From the NCBI RefSeq assembly GCF_021800405.1, contig NZ_CP084550.1, positions 868,001 through 932,000 on the forward strand: 64,000 nt of DNA. The letters run 5' to 3'. Of this stretch, positions 33,090 to 41,226 are shown piece after piece; position 1 is the stretch's first letter; each line of letters begins with the position of its first letter. Origin of the DNA: Arthrobacter sp. FW306-07-I. GTDB lineage: Bacteria > Actinomycetota > Actinomycetes > Actinomycetales > Micrococcaceae. The notes under the pieces were generated by a model that did no database searches, had not been told where the DNA came from, and saw only the letters and a program-made list of their open reading frames with translations. The translations under genes were made by a program, and so were the position numbers.

Positions 33090-33104
33090 CTATAGGATTT
33101 CTAC
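33090..33104 (+). promoter_or_regulatory. Probable leaderless promoter with half-operator before gntR
   Basis: TAGGAT (33093-33098) lies six bases before the ATG at 33105, the spacing of leaderless actinobacterial transcripts, and no ribosome-binding site is visible. It sits within CTATAGGA (33090-33097), which recurs as part of the palindrome at 33890-33899 in front of the next operon. Confidence 0.5.
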
Positions 33105-33794
33105 ATGGCAACCAAGAACCAGGCCTCCGGCGGCGTCAGCAGGCAGGTCCTCGCCGACCACGTTTATGAGGCGCTTCTCGTTGCCCTGATGGACGGGCGG
33201 CTGGAGGCTGGCACTCCCGTCAGCATTGACGGGATGGCCAGGGAACTGGACGTTTCCCCGACGCCGGTCCGTGAAGCCCTGGCCCGCCTGGAAGCTACGG
33301 GAATGGTCCGGAGGATGGCCCTGCGCGGTTACCGCGTGGCGCCGCTGTTCTCCCCCGAAGAGCTGGCTGACCTGATGGACGCCCGGCTGGTCATCGAGCC
33401 GGCGAACGCCTTCATGGCCTGCAAGCACGGGGATCCGCAACTGACCAAGCAGCTGGAACAGGCCATCGAGGACCTGAAGGCAGCCCCGCGGGGACCGTCC
33501 TTCAACGAGTTCCGGGCCTACTGGGAAGCCGACGAACGTTTCCACCGCCTGATAGCCGAGTTCGCTGACAACCAGTTCCTGCTGTCCGCCTATAACGCAT
33601 TGGGTGGTCAGGTGCAGCGTTTCCGCTTCTTCGGGGGCCTGGGCGTGACCGACGCCGATTACGCAATTGCGGAGCACACCGAGATCCTCAAAGCCTTTGT
33701 GGCCGGTGACGCGGAACTTGCGCGGCAGAAAATGATCGAACACATCGAGGGCGTCAAACAGCGCTCACAGCATGACAGTGAAGTGCGCAGCTAG
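33105..33794 (+). CDS. GntR-family regulator, FadR subfamily, of the tetrose-type operon
   Basis: A 229-residue protein: winged helix about 15-80 (VYEALLVALMDGRLEAGTPV, then ELDVSPTPVREALARLEATG) and an FCD domain with RFHRLIAEFADNQFL and AEHTEILKAFVAGD. It lies 130 bases upstream of a seven-gene catabolic operon in the same direction. The CTATAGGA sequence at its own start and in the operon promoter suggests it controls both. The inducer is likely a pathway phosphate or free sugar. Its sequence is only distantly similar to the GntR at 29893. Confidence 0.85.
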   Translation: MATKNQASGGVSRQVLADHVYEALLVALMDGRLEAGTPVSIDGMARELDVSPTPVREALARLEATGMVRRMALRGYRVAPLFSPEELADLMDARLVIEPANAFMACKHGDPQLTKQLEQAIEDLKAAPRGPSFNEFRAYWEADERFHRLIAEFADNQFLLSAYNALGGQVQRFRFFGGLGVTDADYAIAEHTEILKAFVAGDAELARQKMIEHIEGVKQRSQHDSEVRS

Positions 33795-33863
33795 CAGTAT
33801 CCAGCCGCTGCGCTGCCCCCTTTTCCCTAAACCTGCGCTTGAGCAGGCATAACAAAGCGCCCC

Positions 33864-33899
33864 TTGACAGGGCGGACAAGTAACGTAGATCCTATAGGA
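33864..33899 (+). promoter_or_regulatory. Promoter and palindromic operator of the tetrose-type operon
   Basis: TTGACA (33864-33869) and TAGATC (33886-33891) are 16 bases apart. The perfect palindrome TCCTATAGGA (33890-33899) overlaps the -10 element and start point. Its right half CTATAGGA recurs at 33090-33097 before the GntR gene. Confidence 0.65.
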
Positions 33900-33926
33900 A
33901 ATGCGATTCTAAATCTGGAGTGAACA

Positions 33927-38970: not shown

Positions 38971-39074
38971 CGGCGCGCCTTCCCGGCCAAATTGAAAGGC
39001 CGGGCGCCACCCACTAAGCCAGCGGGCCGCCGGCCCCCTGGTACCACCAACATCACCACTCGAAGGAGAGTGTT

Positions 39075-40421
39075 GTGTCCGAAACCACCGCAACATCCAA
39101 GGAGCTTCTGGCCCGTCCGGTCCTGAAGTCCGCGATCTTCAAGGCAGCCCGCCGGCTCATGCCGATGCTGGTCATCCTGTACGTCGTTTCGTTCCTGGAC
39201 CGCACCAACGTCGGCTTTGCCGAGGCGGCGCTGGGAGCTGACAAGGGAGTGTCCGCCGCGGCCTTCGCCCTGGGCGCCGGCATCTTCTTCATTGGCTATG
39301 CGATCTTCGAGATTCCCAGCAACCTGCTGCTCAAGAGGGTCGGCGCCAAGATCTGGCTGGCCCGCATCGCCATCACCTGGGGCATCGTCTCCGCCTGCTT
39401 CGCCTTTGTACAGGGCGAGACGTCCTTCGTGATCCTGCGTTTCCTCCTGGGCGTGACCGAAGCCGGGCTGTTCCCCGGCGTGATCATGTACCTTGCCGAA
39501 TGGTTCCCCAACAAGGTGCGCGTCCAGATGTTCGCCATCTTCTACCTGGCCCAGCCGTTCTCGCAGATGATCGGCAACCCGCTGTCGGGCTGGCTGATCA
39601 ACATCGGTGACCAGGTGCCCGGCCTGCGCGGCTGGCAGGTCATGTTCTTCGTTGAAGGCATGCTGGCCGTCCTGGCAGGCATCGCAGCCTTCTTCTTCCT
39701 GATCAATGGTCCGGAAAAGGCGAAGTTCCTCAGCAGCGATGAGAAGTACGCGCTGAAGGAAGTCATGGCCCTTGAGGACAACATCAAGGATGAGCACGGT
39801 CCGCGCGGCATCCTCGCTGCCATGCGCAACGGCCGCGTCTGGTACTTCACCGTGATCTACTTCTGCCTGCAGGTCGCCGTGTATGGCGTGACGTTCTTCC
39901 TGCCCCAGCAGGTGTCTTCCCTCACCGGGCAGAAGGTGGGGCTCGCCGTCGGCCTGTTGATTGCCGTTCCGTGGTTCTTCGGCATCTTCTCCTGCTACTT
40001 CATCGGCAAGGCCGCGGATACCGTAGCCAAGCGCCGGAAGTTCGGCACCATCCTTTTCATCTCCACCGGCCTGTGCATCTTCGGGTCGGCCTGGGCGGGG
40101 ACCAACCACCAGCCGGTGCTGGGCATGATCTTCATAACCCTGGCTGTCTGCAGCTTCCTGGCCGTGGGTCCCGTGGTCTGGTCCTATCCCACCGCGTTCC
40201 TCGCGGGTTCAGCTGCTGCCGCCGGCATCGGCCTGATCAACTCCCTGGGCAACCTGGGCGGCTTCGTGGCGCCGATCCTCCGGACTGCCGTCAACGAGGC
40301 GACCCAATCGCCCACCGGCTCCATGGGCGTCTATGCCCTGGGTGTCCTGCCATTCGTCGCGGCGGCGATGATGTTCGCCACCCGGCGCTTCAAGAACAAG
40401 GCCGACGACCTGCTCGACTGA
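39075..40421 (+). CDS. MFS transporter, anion:cation symporter-like (second of two)
   Basis: A 448-residue, twelve-helix transporter with the ACS signature split over about residues 30-55 (RRLMPMLVILYVVSFLDR, then TNVGFAEAAL). The GTG at 39075 has AAGGAGAG upstream. The central loop includes SSDEKYALKEVMALED. It resembles the transporter at 30851 along the full length, so the two GntR-controlled modules each own an importer of the same kind. The likely substrate is the polyol or sugar acid that the operon degrades. Confidence 0.85.
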   Translation: MSETTATSKELLARPVLKSAIFKAARRLMPMLVILYVVSFLDRTNVGFAEAALGADKGVSAAAFALGAGIFFIGYAIFEIPSNLLLKRVGAKIWLARIAITWGIVSACFAFVQGETSFVILRFLLGVTEAGLFPGVIMYLAEWFPNKVRVQMFAIFYLAQPFSQMIGNPLSGWLINIGDQVPGLRGWQVMFFVEGMLAVLAGIAAFFFLINGPEKAKFLSSDEKYALKEVMALEDNIKDEHGPRGILAAMRNGRVWYFTVIYFCLQVAVYGVTFFLPQQVSSLTGQKVGLAVGLLIAVPWFFGIFSCYFIGKAADTVAKRRKFGTILFISTGLCIFGSAWAGTNHQPVLGMIFITLAVCSFLAVGPVVWSYPTAFLAGSAAAAGIGLINSLGNLGGFVAPILRTAVNEATQSPTGSMGVYALGVLPFVAAAMMFATRRFKNKADDLLD

Positions 40422-40449
40422 GCGGGCCCACCATCAACGCAAGGAATCC

Positions 40450-41226
40450 ATGAGCACCTCCGGCAGCAACGCAGGCAGCGGCACCCTCTACATCGGTGTC
40501 AGCACCAAAATGTACCTGGGCTACCAGGCAAGCCTGCGCTGGCTGTCGGAGGTGCGCTCCATTGTGGACGAGAGACCAGGACTGGCTGGGAATCAGCCCG
40601 TCCGGGTCTTCGTCATCCCGTCCTTTCCGGTCCTGGAACCCGCAGGCCGGGTCCTGGCCGGCTCGCCCGTGCTGCTTGGGGCGCAGAACTGCGCCTGGGG
40701 GGACGGGCCGTTGACCGGGGAAGTCAGCCCGGGGATGCTCGCCGAACTCGGCGTCTCGCTCGTGGAAATTGGCCACGCGGAACGCCGCAAACTCTTTGCC
40801 GAGGATGACGCCGTGGTGGCACGCAAGGTGCGTGCCGCCGTCGGCCATTCCCTCACCCCGCTGCTCTGCATCGGTGAGCCGGACAGGCTCGACGCCGGGG
40901 CTGCCGCCGCCTTTTGCGTGGCGCAGGTCCGCTCCGCCACCGCGGGAGATGCCGCGCTGCTCAGCCGACTGGTCCTGGCCTACGAGCCGGTGTGGGCCAT
41001 CGGCGCGCAGGAACCTGCCCCGCCACAGCACGTCAACTCAGTCCTGGCCCAGATCCGTGCTGAGCTGGGCGCAGACTGCCCCCTCATTTACGGCGGCAGC
41101 GCCGGCCCCGGGCTGCTGCCCCAACTGCCGGCCGCGGATGGACTCTTCCTGGGCCGGTTCGCCCACGACGCCGCCAACCTGGGCCGCGTCCTGGACGAAG
41201 CCATCGCCCTTGCCAAGACCCGCTAA
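40450..41226 (+). CDS. Triosephosphate isomerase-like sugar phosphate isomerase
   Basis: A 258-residue TIM homologue retaining the catalytic Lys (STKMYLG), His (VEIGHAERRKLF; TIM has GHSERR) and Glu (LAYEPVWAIG), and the phosphate-binding YGGSAGPG near the end. The N-terminal GVSTKMY replaces the usual GNWKM. Paralogous TIMs of this kind (EryH, LerI) convert L-erythrulose-1-P to D-erythrulose-4-P in tetritol degradation, and the operon also has the RpiB-like partner. It closes the operon; a housekeeping tpiA is expected elsewhere. Confidence 0.82.
   Translation: MSTSGSNAGSGTLYIGVSTKMYLGYQASLRWLSEVRSIVDERPGLAGNQPVRVFVIPSFPVLEPAGRVLAGSPVLLGAQNCAWGDGPLTGEVSPGMLAELGVSLVEIGHAERRKLFAEDDAVVARKVRAAVGHSLTPLLCIGEPDRLDAGAAAAFCVAQVRSATAGDAALLSRLVLAYEPVWAIGAQEPAPPQHVNSVLAQIRAELGADCPLIYGGSAGPGLLPQLPAADGLFLGRFAHDAANLGRVLDEAIALAKTR

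Follow-up and report, generated by a model that had tools for sequence, protein, structure and literature searches.

A conserved operon of Arthrobacter and its relatives, proposed to degrade a five-carbon sugar acid through erythrulose

The genome of Arthrobacter sp. FW306-07-I (4.56 Mb) contains eight genes in one direction that we propose to be an operon for the catabolism of a sugar acid. They lie within a stretch of 64,000 nucleotides that we call the window (positions 868,001 to 932,000 of contig NZ_CP084550.1; all coordinates below are those of the window). In the proposed route a C5 acid would be oxidised at C3 by a 3HCDH-family dehydrogenase (HCDH), decarboxylated to erythrulose by a xylose-isomerase-like barrel (BAR), and passed to a lower module made up of a kinase and two isomerases. 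We give this reading a probability of roughly 0.48, that is, close to even. The genes and upstream elements are as follows.

33105..33794, + strand: GntR2 (FCD; PF00392 and PF07729), probable repressor of the main operon; this gene and the operator tend to co-occur
33864..33869, + strand: TTGACA, a -35-like element, invariant in 22 aligned upstream regions
33890..33899, + strand: palindrome TCCTATAGGA, a probable operator for GntR2 (identical copies upstream of BAR in 75 of 80 Micrococcaceae loci)
33927..34925, + strand: BAR, xylose-isomerase-like TIM barrel (PF01261, 93.3 bits), proposed 3-oxo-sugar-acid decarboxylase
34970..36691, + strand: DAK, fused DhaK-DhaL (Dak1-Dak2) kinase (NF011049, 756.5 bits), proposed erythrulose kinase of the LerK/DerK type
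36702..37196, + strand: RPIB, RpiB-like (TIGR02133, 201.2 bits, over the cut-off)
37193..38146, + strand: HCDH, 3HCDH-family dehydrogenase (PF02737 and PF00725), proposed sugar-acid 3-dehydrogenase
38203..38970, + strand: SDR2, short-chain dehydrogenase (PF13561)
39075..40421, + strand: MFS2, ACS-type transporter (TIGR00893, 272 bits, cut-off 395), proposed sugar-acid importer
40450..41226, + strand: TIM-like gene (PDB matches 3s6d and 11ef; TIM tree)

According to this proposal the substrate imported by MFS2 would be a C5 sugar acid, with a pentonate the likeliest candidate, and HCDH would oxidise the C3 hydroxyl of this acid with NAD+ to give a 3-oxo acid, which the metal-dependent BAR would decarboxylate to erythrulose. 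DAK would phosphorylate erythrulose, the LerI-like TIM would convert L-erythrulose-1-phosphate to D-erythrulose-4-phosphate, and the DerI-like RPIB would yield D-erythrose-4-phosphate, which would enter the pentose phosphate pathway. GntR2 would repress the operon via TCCTATAGGA near the promoter. The first two reactions have an analogy in the L-gulonate route. L-gulonate 3-dehydrogenase has the 3HCDH fold and oxidises C3 of an aldonate, and 3-keto-L-gulonate loses CO2 to become L-xylulose; in the same way, C3 oxidation and decarboxylation of a pentonate would give erythrulose. The two routes would share C3 oxidation by a 3HCDH-fold enzyme and loss of CO2 to a ketose one carbon shorter; the L-gulonate route differs in its C6 acid and in a decarboxylase of another kind. 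A first-pass annotation of the window had guessed that the barrel and the 3HCDH-like enzyme open a route from a sugar acid, and this guess gains support from the acid-type transporters, from two further dehydrogenases of acid type that can occupy the HCDH slot and from the D-apionate operon, whose layout runs parallel (see below).

Conservation and regulation of the gene set

All eight genes were confirmed on the + strand (33105-41226), as first annotated. Of the overlaps noted at that time one stands, 4 bp between RPIB and HCDH; all other neighbours are separated by 10-132 bp. The starts of DAK, RpiB, HCDH, SDR, MFS and TIM were inspected.

We ran the genome-neighbourhood comparison of the barrel and 3HCDH-like families that the first-pass annotation had suggested. 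BAR relatives were found at 567 places in genome contigs, the nearest in Arthrobacter and Pseudarthrobacter, and the best 80, a set biased to close relatives, were taken as loci (numbered L; genomes are numbered G). Neighbours were counted up to 9.5 kb from BAR using family-specific identity limits and 35% query coverage; our own gene calling failed in some high-GC loci. Among these 80 loci, DAK was near BAR in 79, RPIB in 77, HCDH in 77, SDR2 in 73, TIM in 71, GntR2 in 71 and MFS2 in 69, and the three loci lacking HCDH (L008, L055, L063) are short contigs. This grouping is more than chance. SDR2 and MFS2 were both not found in L015 and L041, which keep the other operon genes. BAR was detected at E <= 1e-30 in 99 of 396 genomes of the order and in 4 of 396 genomes of a phylum-wide sample.

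TTGACA and TCCTATAGGA upstream of BAR are invariant in 22 aligned sequences, and in 75 of the 80 Micrococcaceae loci TCCTATAGGA has an exact copy no more than 300 bp from BAR. By comparison, 200 random permutations of the word (the real word was skipped if drawn) matched at most one of the 80 loci, with a mean of 0.005. The copy upstream of BAR is the only exact one in the genome. A single site in the window is not unusual on its own, as 23 of 100 shuffled windows contained a match with at most one mismatch. In 73 other upstream regions the word was exact in 20 and had one mismatch in 4. Allowing one mismatch, the operator and GntR2 were both present in 71 Micrococcaceae loci, the operator alone in 4 and neither in 5. 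The loci without an operator (L036, L046, L060, L064, L070) also lack GntR2; an operator without GntR2 was found in L024, L051, L069 and L073, and in the last three BAR is close to the contig start. The 80 loci also hold copies of TCCTATAGGA at 34 places close to the GntR2 promoter, at a distance of 700-1300 bp upstream of BAR. TCCTATAGGA is likely the operator of GntR2. The link is looser in a wider set of 60 loci (both 17, GntR2 only 17, operator only 3, neither 23), and among nine plasmid loci one had GntR2 only and eight had neither. The pattern TNGTNNNACNA had one match in the six intergenic stretches examined, between SDR2 and MFS2.

The lower module and the dehydrogenase slot

DAK passes both NF011049 (756.5 bits, cut-off 492) and the DhaL model TIGR02365 (141.4 bits, cut-off 138.3) and falls under the glycerone kinase cut-off of TIGR02361. 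RPIB exceeds the cut-off of TIGR02133, 'ribose-5-phosphate isomerase', with a score matched by the RpiB of an apionate-type operon (201.6 bits), and reaches 160.6 bits on NF051858, the model of DerI (D-erythrulose-4-phosphate isomerase, rhizobial by its name; cut-off 240). The first PDB match of TIM is the putative TIM 3s6d (137.6 bits) and the second is the L-erythrulose-1-phosphate isomerase 11ef (134 bits). In a tree with a midpoint root, in which branch support was not considered, the window TIM clusters with the TIMs of BAR and apionate-type operons. Outside this group, alongside EryH-type TIMs and the TIMs of four BAR loci (L118, L152, L154, L165), falls the genome's best-matching TIM. 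That TIM is encoded elsewhere and scores 303 bits compared with 169 for the window TIM, which together with the tree rules out that the window TIM is the only one of the genome. The genome has four Dak1, four RpiB-family and three TIM matches.

The tree and the better-matching TIM elsewhere indicate that the window TIM is of the LerI type and not a housekeeping enzyme. The kinase, RpiB-like and TIM-like genes are proposed to form a lower tetrulose module leading from erythrulose to erythrose-4-phosphate, and the tetrose-phosphate route of the first-pass annotation is supported as this lower route. LerI and DerI convert L-erythrulose-1-phosphate into D-erythrose-4-phosphate, according to PMC10733421. 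The family names, and the fact that DAK passes TIGR02365 and RPIB passes TIGR02133, could instead point to ordinary dihydroxyacetone or triose metabolism with housekeeping isomerases. We consider this extremely improbable in view of the better TIM elsewhere and the further RpiB and Dak1 copies; by the same comparison, the caveat raised earlier that the RpiB- and TIM-like proteins might have housekeeping activity only is unlikely to apply. On another contig of the genome (C2, 101,757 bp, which may be a plasmid), a second DAK-RpiB-TIM set lies at 22171-25112 of that contig (L119), and no BAR or HCDH match was found in the surrounding 20 kb.

The same lower module occurs in the tetritol/erythrulose pathway of Mycolicibacterium smegmatis, reportedly described by Huang et al. 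in 2015 with LerK/DerK, LerI and DerI. BAR and HCDH are not known to be part of that pathway. If the operon were a plain tetritol or tetrose operon, SDR would oxidise threitol or erythritol to erythrulose, and BAR and HCDH would be side enzymes. The LerK/LerI/DerI-type genes and the similarity of SDR2 to the GolD/DthD family (152.5 bits, below the cut-off of 286) fit such an operon, which we judge very improbable because L015 and L041 keep BAR, HCDH, DAK, RpiB and TIM with no SDR or MFS found and because many relatives have acid-type transporters.

We examined the dehydrogenase in the wider set, hand-picked to span many genera (59 loci from the order and one, L118, from the class), and in the plasmid loci, which were chosen among 94 records (eight alphaproteobacterial, one Streptomyces). 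DAK was near BAR in 46 of the 60 wider loci, and 43 of these 46 have an acid-type (beta-hydroxyacid-type) dehydrogenase within 9.5 kb: HCDH in 24, HCDH together with an L-threonate-dehydrogenase-like protein (BHAD) in 6, PdxA in 5, BHAD in 5, and PdxA with BHAD in 3. In the six loci with HCDH and BHAD, the latter may belong to an adjoining LtnD/OtnK set; OtnK-like genes are nearby in 4 of the 80 close loci and 6 of the 60 wider loci. Replacement in place was seen as BAR-DAK-RPIB-PdxA (L124, L125) and as BAR-BHAD-DAK (L133, L136, L139, L146, L150). All eight alphaproteobacterial plasmid loci (from Sinorhizobium, Ensifer, Pararhizobium, Shinella, Paracoccus and Rhizobium) carry PdxA, TctA, BAR and DAK, and the Streptomyces plasmid locus carries BHAD. 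PdxA differs in Pfam family and fold from HCDH and BHAD. Three tested BHAD proteins score 205-244 bits on the L-threonate dehydrogenase model (cut-off 350) and two tested PdxA proteins 226 and 268 bits on the pdxA model (cut-off 290), so none of those tested is a standard member.

On the rhizobial and Paracoccus plasmids (L178, L180-L186) the PdxA-like gene clusters with a tripartite tricarboxylate transporter, BAR and DAK; where annotated, this PdxA is called a vitamin B6 enzyme, and it probably belongs to sugar-acid catabolism. In L132 and L140 one strand carries BAR-HCDH-SDR-MFS and the other DAK-RpiB-TIM, and in L137 and L138 the first set occurs without DAK inside 9.5 kb, suggesting an upper and a lower module. 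In three other loci (L046, L060, L070) BAR-DAK-RpiB-HCDH stands behind LacI, ABC-like and Gfo/Idh genes, with no GntR2 and no operator. Against the levoglucosan dehydrogenase model, which has a cut-off of 650 bits, the Gfo/Idh protein of L046 scores 363, and L070 holds another PF01261 barrel.

The solved protein nearest to HCDH is 4om8, 5-formyl-3-hydroxy-2-methylpyridine-4-carboxylate 5-dehydrogenase, whose name refers to a non-CoA pyridine carboxylate (172 bits), closely followed by a hydroxybutyryl-CoA enzyme (165.5 bits). The putative catalytic residues S120, H141, E153 and N191 are invariant in 25 HCDH sequences, and we take their spacing to be that of the 3HCDH-family catalytic residues. 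Comparison of HCDH with NCBIfam listed 22 families, none of which reached its cut-off; this result and the operon context disfavour a role in fatty-acid metabolism.

The barrel and related pathways

The logic of converting an acid to erythrulose and then to erythrose-4-phosphate is already known from the D-apionate pathway, of which the HCDH/BAR set would by analogy be a variant. The OiaC branch of that pathway, described by Carter et al. in 2018, is said to consist of ApnO, OiaC, LerK, LerI and DerI. We take PF16896 to be ApnO, the D-apionate oxidoisomerase. PF16896 occurs in 34 of 297 genomes of the order, at 35 places, and in the 14 regions fetched it is near a PF01261-type barrel in 14, RpiB in 12, DAK in 10 and TIM in 10. 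The order DAK-RPIB-TIM-barrel-PF16896 on one strand was found in L214, L215, L218 and L222, of which all but L214 also have an MFS2-like gene upstream; it is partial in L220, L223 and L224, and L217, L219 and L221 have no DAK near. Plasmids of Pantoea and Erwinia carry MFS-DAK-TIM-barrel-PF16896 with rpiB beside them. In Marivivens and Rhizobium, PF16896 adjoins genes annotated as OiaX and four-carbon acid sugar kinase, and the protein itself is weakly similar to ketol-acid reductoisomerase (KARI). The enzyme set of OiaX and four-carbon acid sugar kinase is listed for D-apiose in PMC11747546. These neighbours, the D-apiose set and the weak KARI likeness support the assignment of PF16896 to ApnO.

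The window operon shares with the D-apionate pathway an NAD-type dehydrogenase, a PF01261 barrel and, by sequence, the fused DAK, the LerI-type TIM, RpiB and the acid-type MFS, the last of these being present in several of the apionate-type operons. It differs in having HCDH in place of ApnO (PF16896/KARI-like), a barrel of another subfamily (BAR) and an extra SDR. In four loci (L216, L225, L226, L227) the BAR set adjoins an apionate-type set, and one DAK-RpiB-TIM module seemingly serves both. As dehydrogenase of the BAR set, L216 and L226 have HCDH and L227 has PdxA; in L225 no such gene was detected. The two kinds of set seem to supply a single lower module from different substrates.

The shared lower module and transporter type, and the relatedness of BAR to the barrel beside PF16896 (the OiaC-type barrel), would also fit if the operon itself degraded D-apionate and used HCDH where ApnO would otherwise act. 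We regard this as improbable. The four paired loci carry the ApnO-type set beside the BAR set, ApnO-type genes also occur in L165, L166, L174 and L177, and genomes G415 and G470 hold both at separate places. HCDH has no PF16896 or KARI-like match, and by general chemistry C3 of apionate bears no hydrogen, so that a 3-dehydrogenase cannot oxidise it. A profile search of the window's genome gave no PF16896 (ApnO-family) match, and this absence, with the ApnO-type sets standing beside BAR sets, told against the D-apionate pathway as the identity of the operon.

One close solved relative of BAR was found, 5tnv from M. smegmatis ('AP endonuclease, family protein 2'), which is 45% identical and has magnesium bound. 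The AlphaFold model of BAR is moderate (pLDDT 70.6, pTM 0.79). A BAR profile gave 21.6-37.8 bits on 17 of 19 OiaC-type barrels, compared with 5.7 and 6.1 bits on two related control barrels. In the reverse comparison BAR scored 25.9 bits on the OiaC-type profile, whose members score 382-446, and thus BAR is not an OiaC orthologue. The residues D54, A111, E177, Y179, E180, G203, D207, N210, K238, G261, E284, H285 and D289 (numbered as in the BAR of the window; conservation of 85% or more among 15 and 19 sequences) are common to BAR and the OiaC type, and the E-x-Y-E, D-x-x-N, Lys and E-H residues are conserved alike in both, so that the likeness to the D-apionate pathway extends to the metal site. 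When alignments were compared with hhalign, a control alignment of two unlike barrels (A5) reached 95.5% and the OiaC type 98.4%, the alignment being too shallow to weigh.

BAR was rejected as EryC or IolE, since its profile gave 1.9 and 2.6 bits on two rhizobial EryC-position barrels and 3.7 bits on the window IolE. PMC10733421 gives EryC the name D-erythrulose-1-phosphate 3-epimerase. The erythritol pathway of rhizobia and Brucella (EryABCHI) is similar in its terminal TIM- and RpiB-like isomerases and in having a PF01261 barrel in the operon, and it differs in that EryC and BAR have no more than the fold in common. Neither EryA (FGGY) nor the glycerol-3-phosphate-dehydrogenase-like EryB was found among the genes scanned (29893-41226). 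The earlier statement that an IolE-like barrel belongs to no tetritol pathway has to be withdrawn, as the EryC position of the two rhizobial erythritol operons holds a PF01261 barrel; the window barrel is unlike EryC, so the tetritol pathways still leave BAR unexplained.

The L-threonate and D-erythronate pathways also oxidise an acid and then decarboxylate to a ketose, and in some relatives of the window operon the dehydrogenase slot is occupied by LtnD- or PdxA-like enzymes. PdxA2 is counted among the enzymes of these pathways. The scan of 29893-41226 contained neither an OtnK-type kinase nor OtnC. These pathways differ in using C4 acids, in phosphorylation by OtnK before decarboxylation and in a triose product (PMC12540250). 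On their model, HCDH or BHAD would oxidise C2, BAR would be an OtnI-like isomerase of the 2-oxo to the 3-oxo acid, and the 3-oxo acid would lose CO2 spontaneously; the occurrence of LtnD-like enzymes in the slot of some loci agrees with this, as does the order LtnD, OtnI, OtnK, OtnC that the same article gives for the L-threonate route. We hold this version to be distinctly improbable. The 3-hydroxyl is the group on which both 3HCDH- and PdxA-family enzymes act, so that no isomerase would be needed, yet BAR is present.

The input and the chemistry of the barrel

Among the 60 wider loci, transporters were MFS2-like in 10, GntP in 8 (that of L118 was confirmed by Pfam) and TctA in 7; 15 had glycosidase or ABC genes without these, and in 20 none was recognised. 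MFS2-like (ACS), GntP and TctA transporters are acid-transporter families. GH3, GH51 or GH39 genes are near BAR in 14 of the 60 loci and also on the Streptomyces plasmid. Two of three tested GH3 proteins reached the xylosidase/arabinosidase cut-off of 1050 bits (1018.5, 1079.2 and 1177.2), the one GH51 tested reached the ArfA cut-off, and GH39 was identified by Pfam. Judged by these acid-type transporters and by the pentose-type glycosidases in the vicinity, a sugar acid is the probable input, or in some loci a pentose needing prior conversion to the acid. An SMP-30/gluconolactonase gene follows HCDH in L127. L-pentonates would be a natural guess where a LerI-type TIM is present. The C5 acid 2-oxo-L-threo-pentonate arises in vitro from the ascorbate product diketogulonate and peroxide (PMC6225978), which is one possible kind of natural source.

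Several findings weigh against the proposed route. The barrel beside PF16896 is presumably OiaC, an assignment made by elimination. On the OiaC-type barrels of Erwinia and Pantoea, which stand in the clearest operons, the BAR profile gave 10.4 and 3.9 bits, no better than on controls, and it gave up to 37 bits on ketose 3-epimerases of the PDB. With single sequences in hhalign, the control barrel of L070 (67.6%) came near one OiaC-type barrel of the clearest operons (70.3%), and D-tagatose/D-psicose 3-epimerases head the fold matches behind 5tnv, which also include UlaE. PdxA-family enzymes carry out oxidative decarboxylation themselves; loci with PdxA would then have no need of BAR as a decarboxylase, but they retain it. 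Three of the 46 wider loci with BAR and DAK (L129, L157, L174) have no dehydrogenase within 9.5 kb of BAR, and 12 of the 60 have none on the same strand within 5.5 kb. TIM was found near none of the nine plasmid loci and RpiB near only one; TIM was not found in 9 of the 15 glycosidase-linked loci, and an aldose-to-acid candidate was found in only one of these 15 (L168; one Gfo/Idh and one SMP-30 query). The route does not account for SDR, which may admit a second stereoisomer or a keto acid. An L-configuration at C4 would need TIM and a D-configuration would not, which may explain the absence of TIM from the nine glycosidase-linked loci.

Part of this evidence suits the same route with BAR as a ketose 3-epimerase of D-/L-erythrulose or their phosphates, decarboxylation being spontaneous or carried out by the dehydrogenase. 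Epimerases lead the fold matches after 5tnv and are also found by profile, and such a function would explain the retention of BAR alongside PdxA-type dehydrogenases and in loci that lack TIM. This alternative deserves consideration and is, in our estimate, unlikely. BAR is not EryC and scores 26.3 bits on the D-psicose 3-epimerase model NF051856, not passing its cut-off of 300; where TIM is present, it would already do the same stereochemical job; and the metal-site residues of BAR are those of the OiaC-type barrel, at which ketose 3-epimerases differ. Profile and fold similarity fail to separate a decarboxylase from an epimerase, as OiaC-type barrels and ketose 3-epimerases score alike, and for this reason the BAR profile scores speak only against EryC and IolE. 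We prefer a decarboxylase because of context and site residues, not overall similarity.

Neighbouring genes and implications

To the left, the system appears to extend by a unit at 29893-32986:

29893..30624, + strand: GntR1, GntR/FCD regulator (PF00392 and PF07729), probably for the MFS1-SDR1 pair
30851..32200, + strand: MFS1, ACS-type (D-galactonate/HpaX-like) transporter (TIGR00893, 295.4 bits; TIGR02332, 301.6 bits; both below cut-offs)
32210..32986, + strand: SDR1, short-chain dehydrogenase paired with MFS1 (PF13561)

Thirteen of the 14 closest loci (L005-L018) contain GntR1, MFS1 and SDR1 together. Homologues of the MFS1-SDR1 pair (79% and 72-73%) follow HCDH in L036 and L064, at the position that SDR2-MFS2 occupy in the window. 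Given this replacement and the retention of the unit in the closest loci, we count it as part of the same system. Copies of SDR1 in relatives share 53-55% identity with SDR2. Downstream, a small protein whose translation reads as SRPBCC-like is encoded on the minus strand (41249-41734) between the operon and inositol genes and was found in 12 of L005-L018. At 42257-51508 the translations read as myo-inositol-type genes (iolC-, iolJ-, iolD-, iolA-, iolE- and iolG-like, and a sugar MFS; iolE was scanned and has PF01261). Of L005-L018, 11 had an iolC match; L019-L084 had none.

A literature search that covered few subscription journals, with the D-apiose paper outside it, found no description of this gene set. 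Known C5 sugar-acid routes run via 2-keto-3-deoxypentonate, by Route I or Route II (PMC6336799). We tentatively suggest, at odds somewhat above one in three, that the BAR operons represent an undescribed pentonate pathway of Actinomycetota and rhizobia, with C3 oxidation and decarboxylation in place of dehydration, in which BAR is kept and three dehydrogenases are interchangeable. In such a pathway the glycosidase-linked loci might, with similar caution, be the entry for pentoses released by GH3, GH39 or GH51. If true, a decarboxylating C5 sugar-acid route would be added beside the 2-keto-3-deoxypentonate routes, and a function would be given to the PF01261 subfamily of 5tnv, for which 567 related places were found. 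One barrel and one kinase would be retained while other enzymes replace the dehydrogenase, and genes labelled '3-hydroxybutyryl-CoA dehydrogenase', 'xylose isomerase' or 'PdxA' would become testable as a common set.

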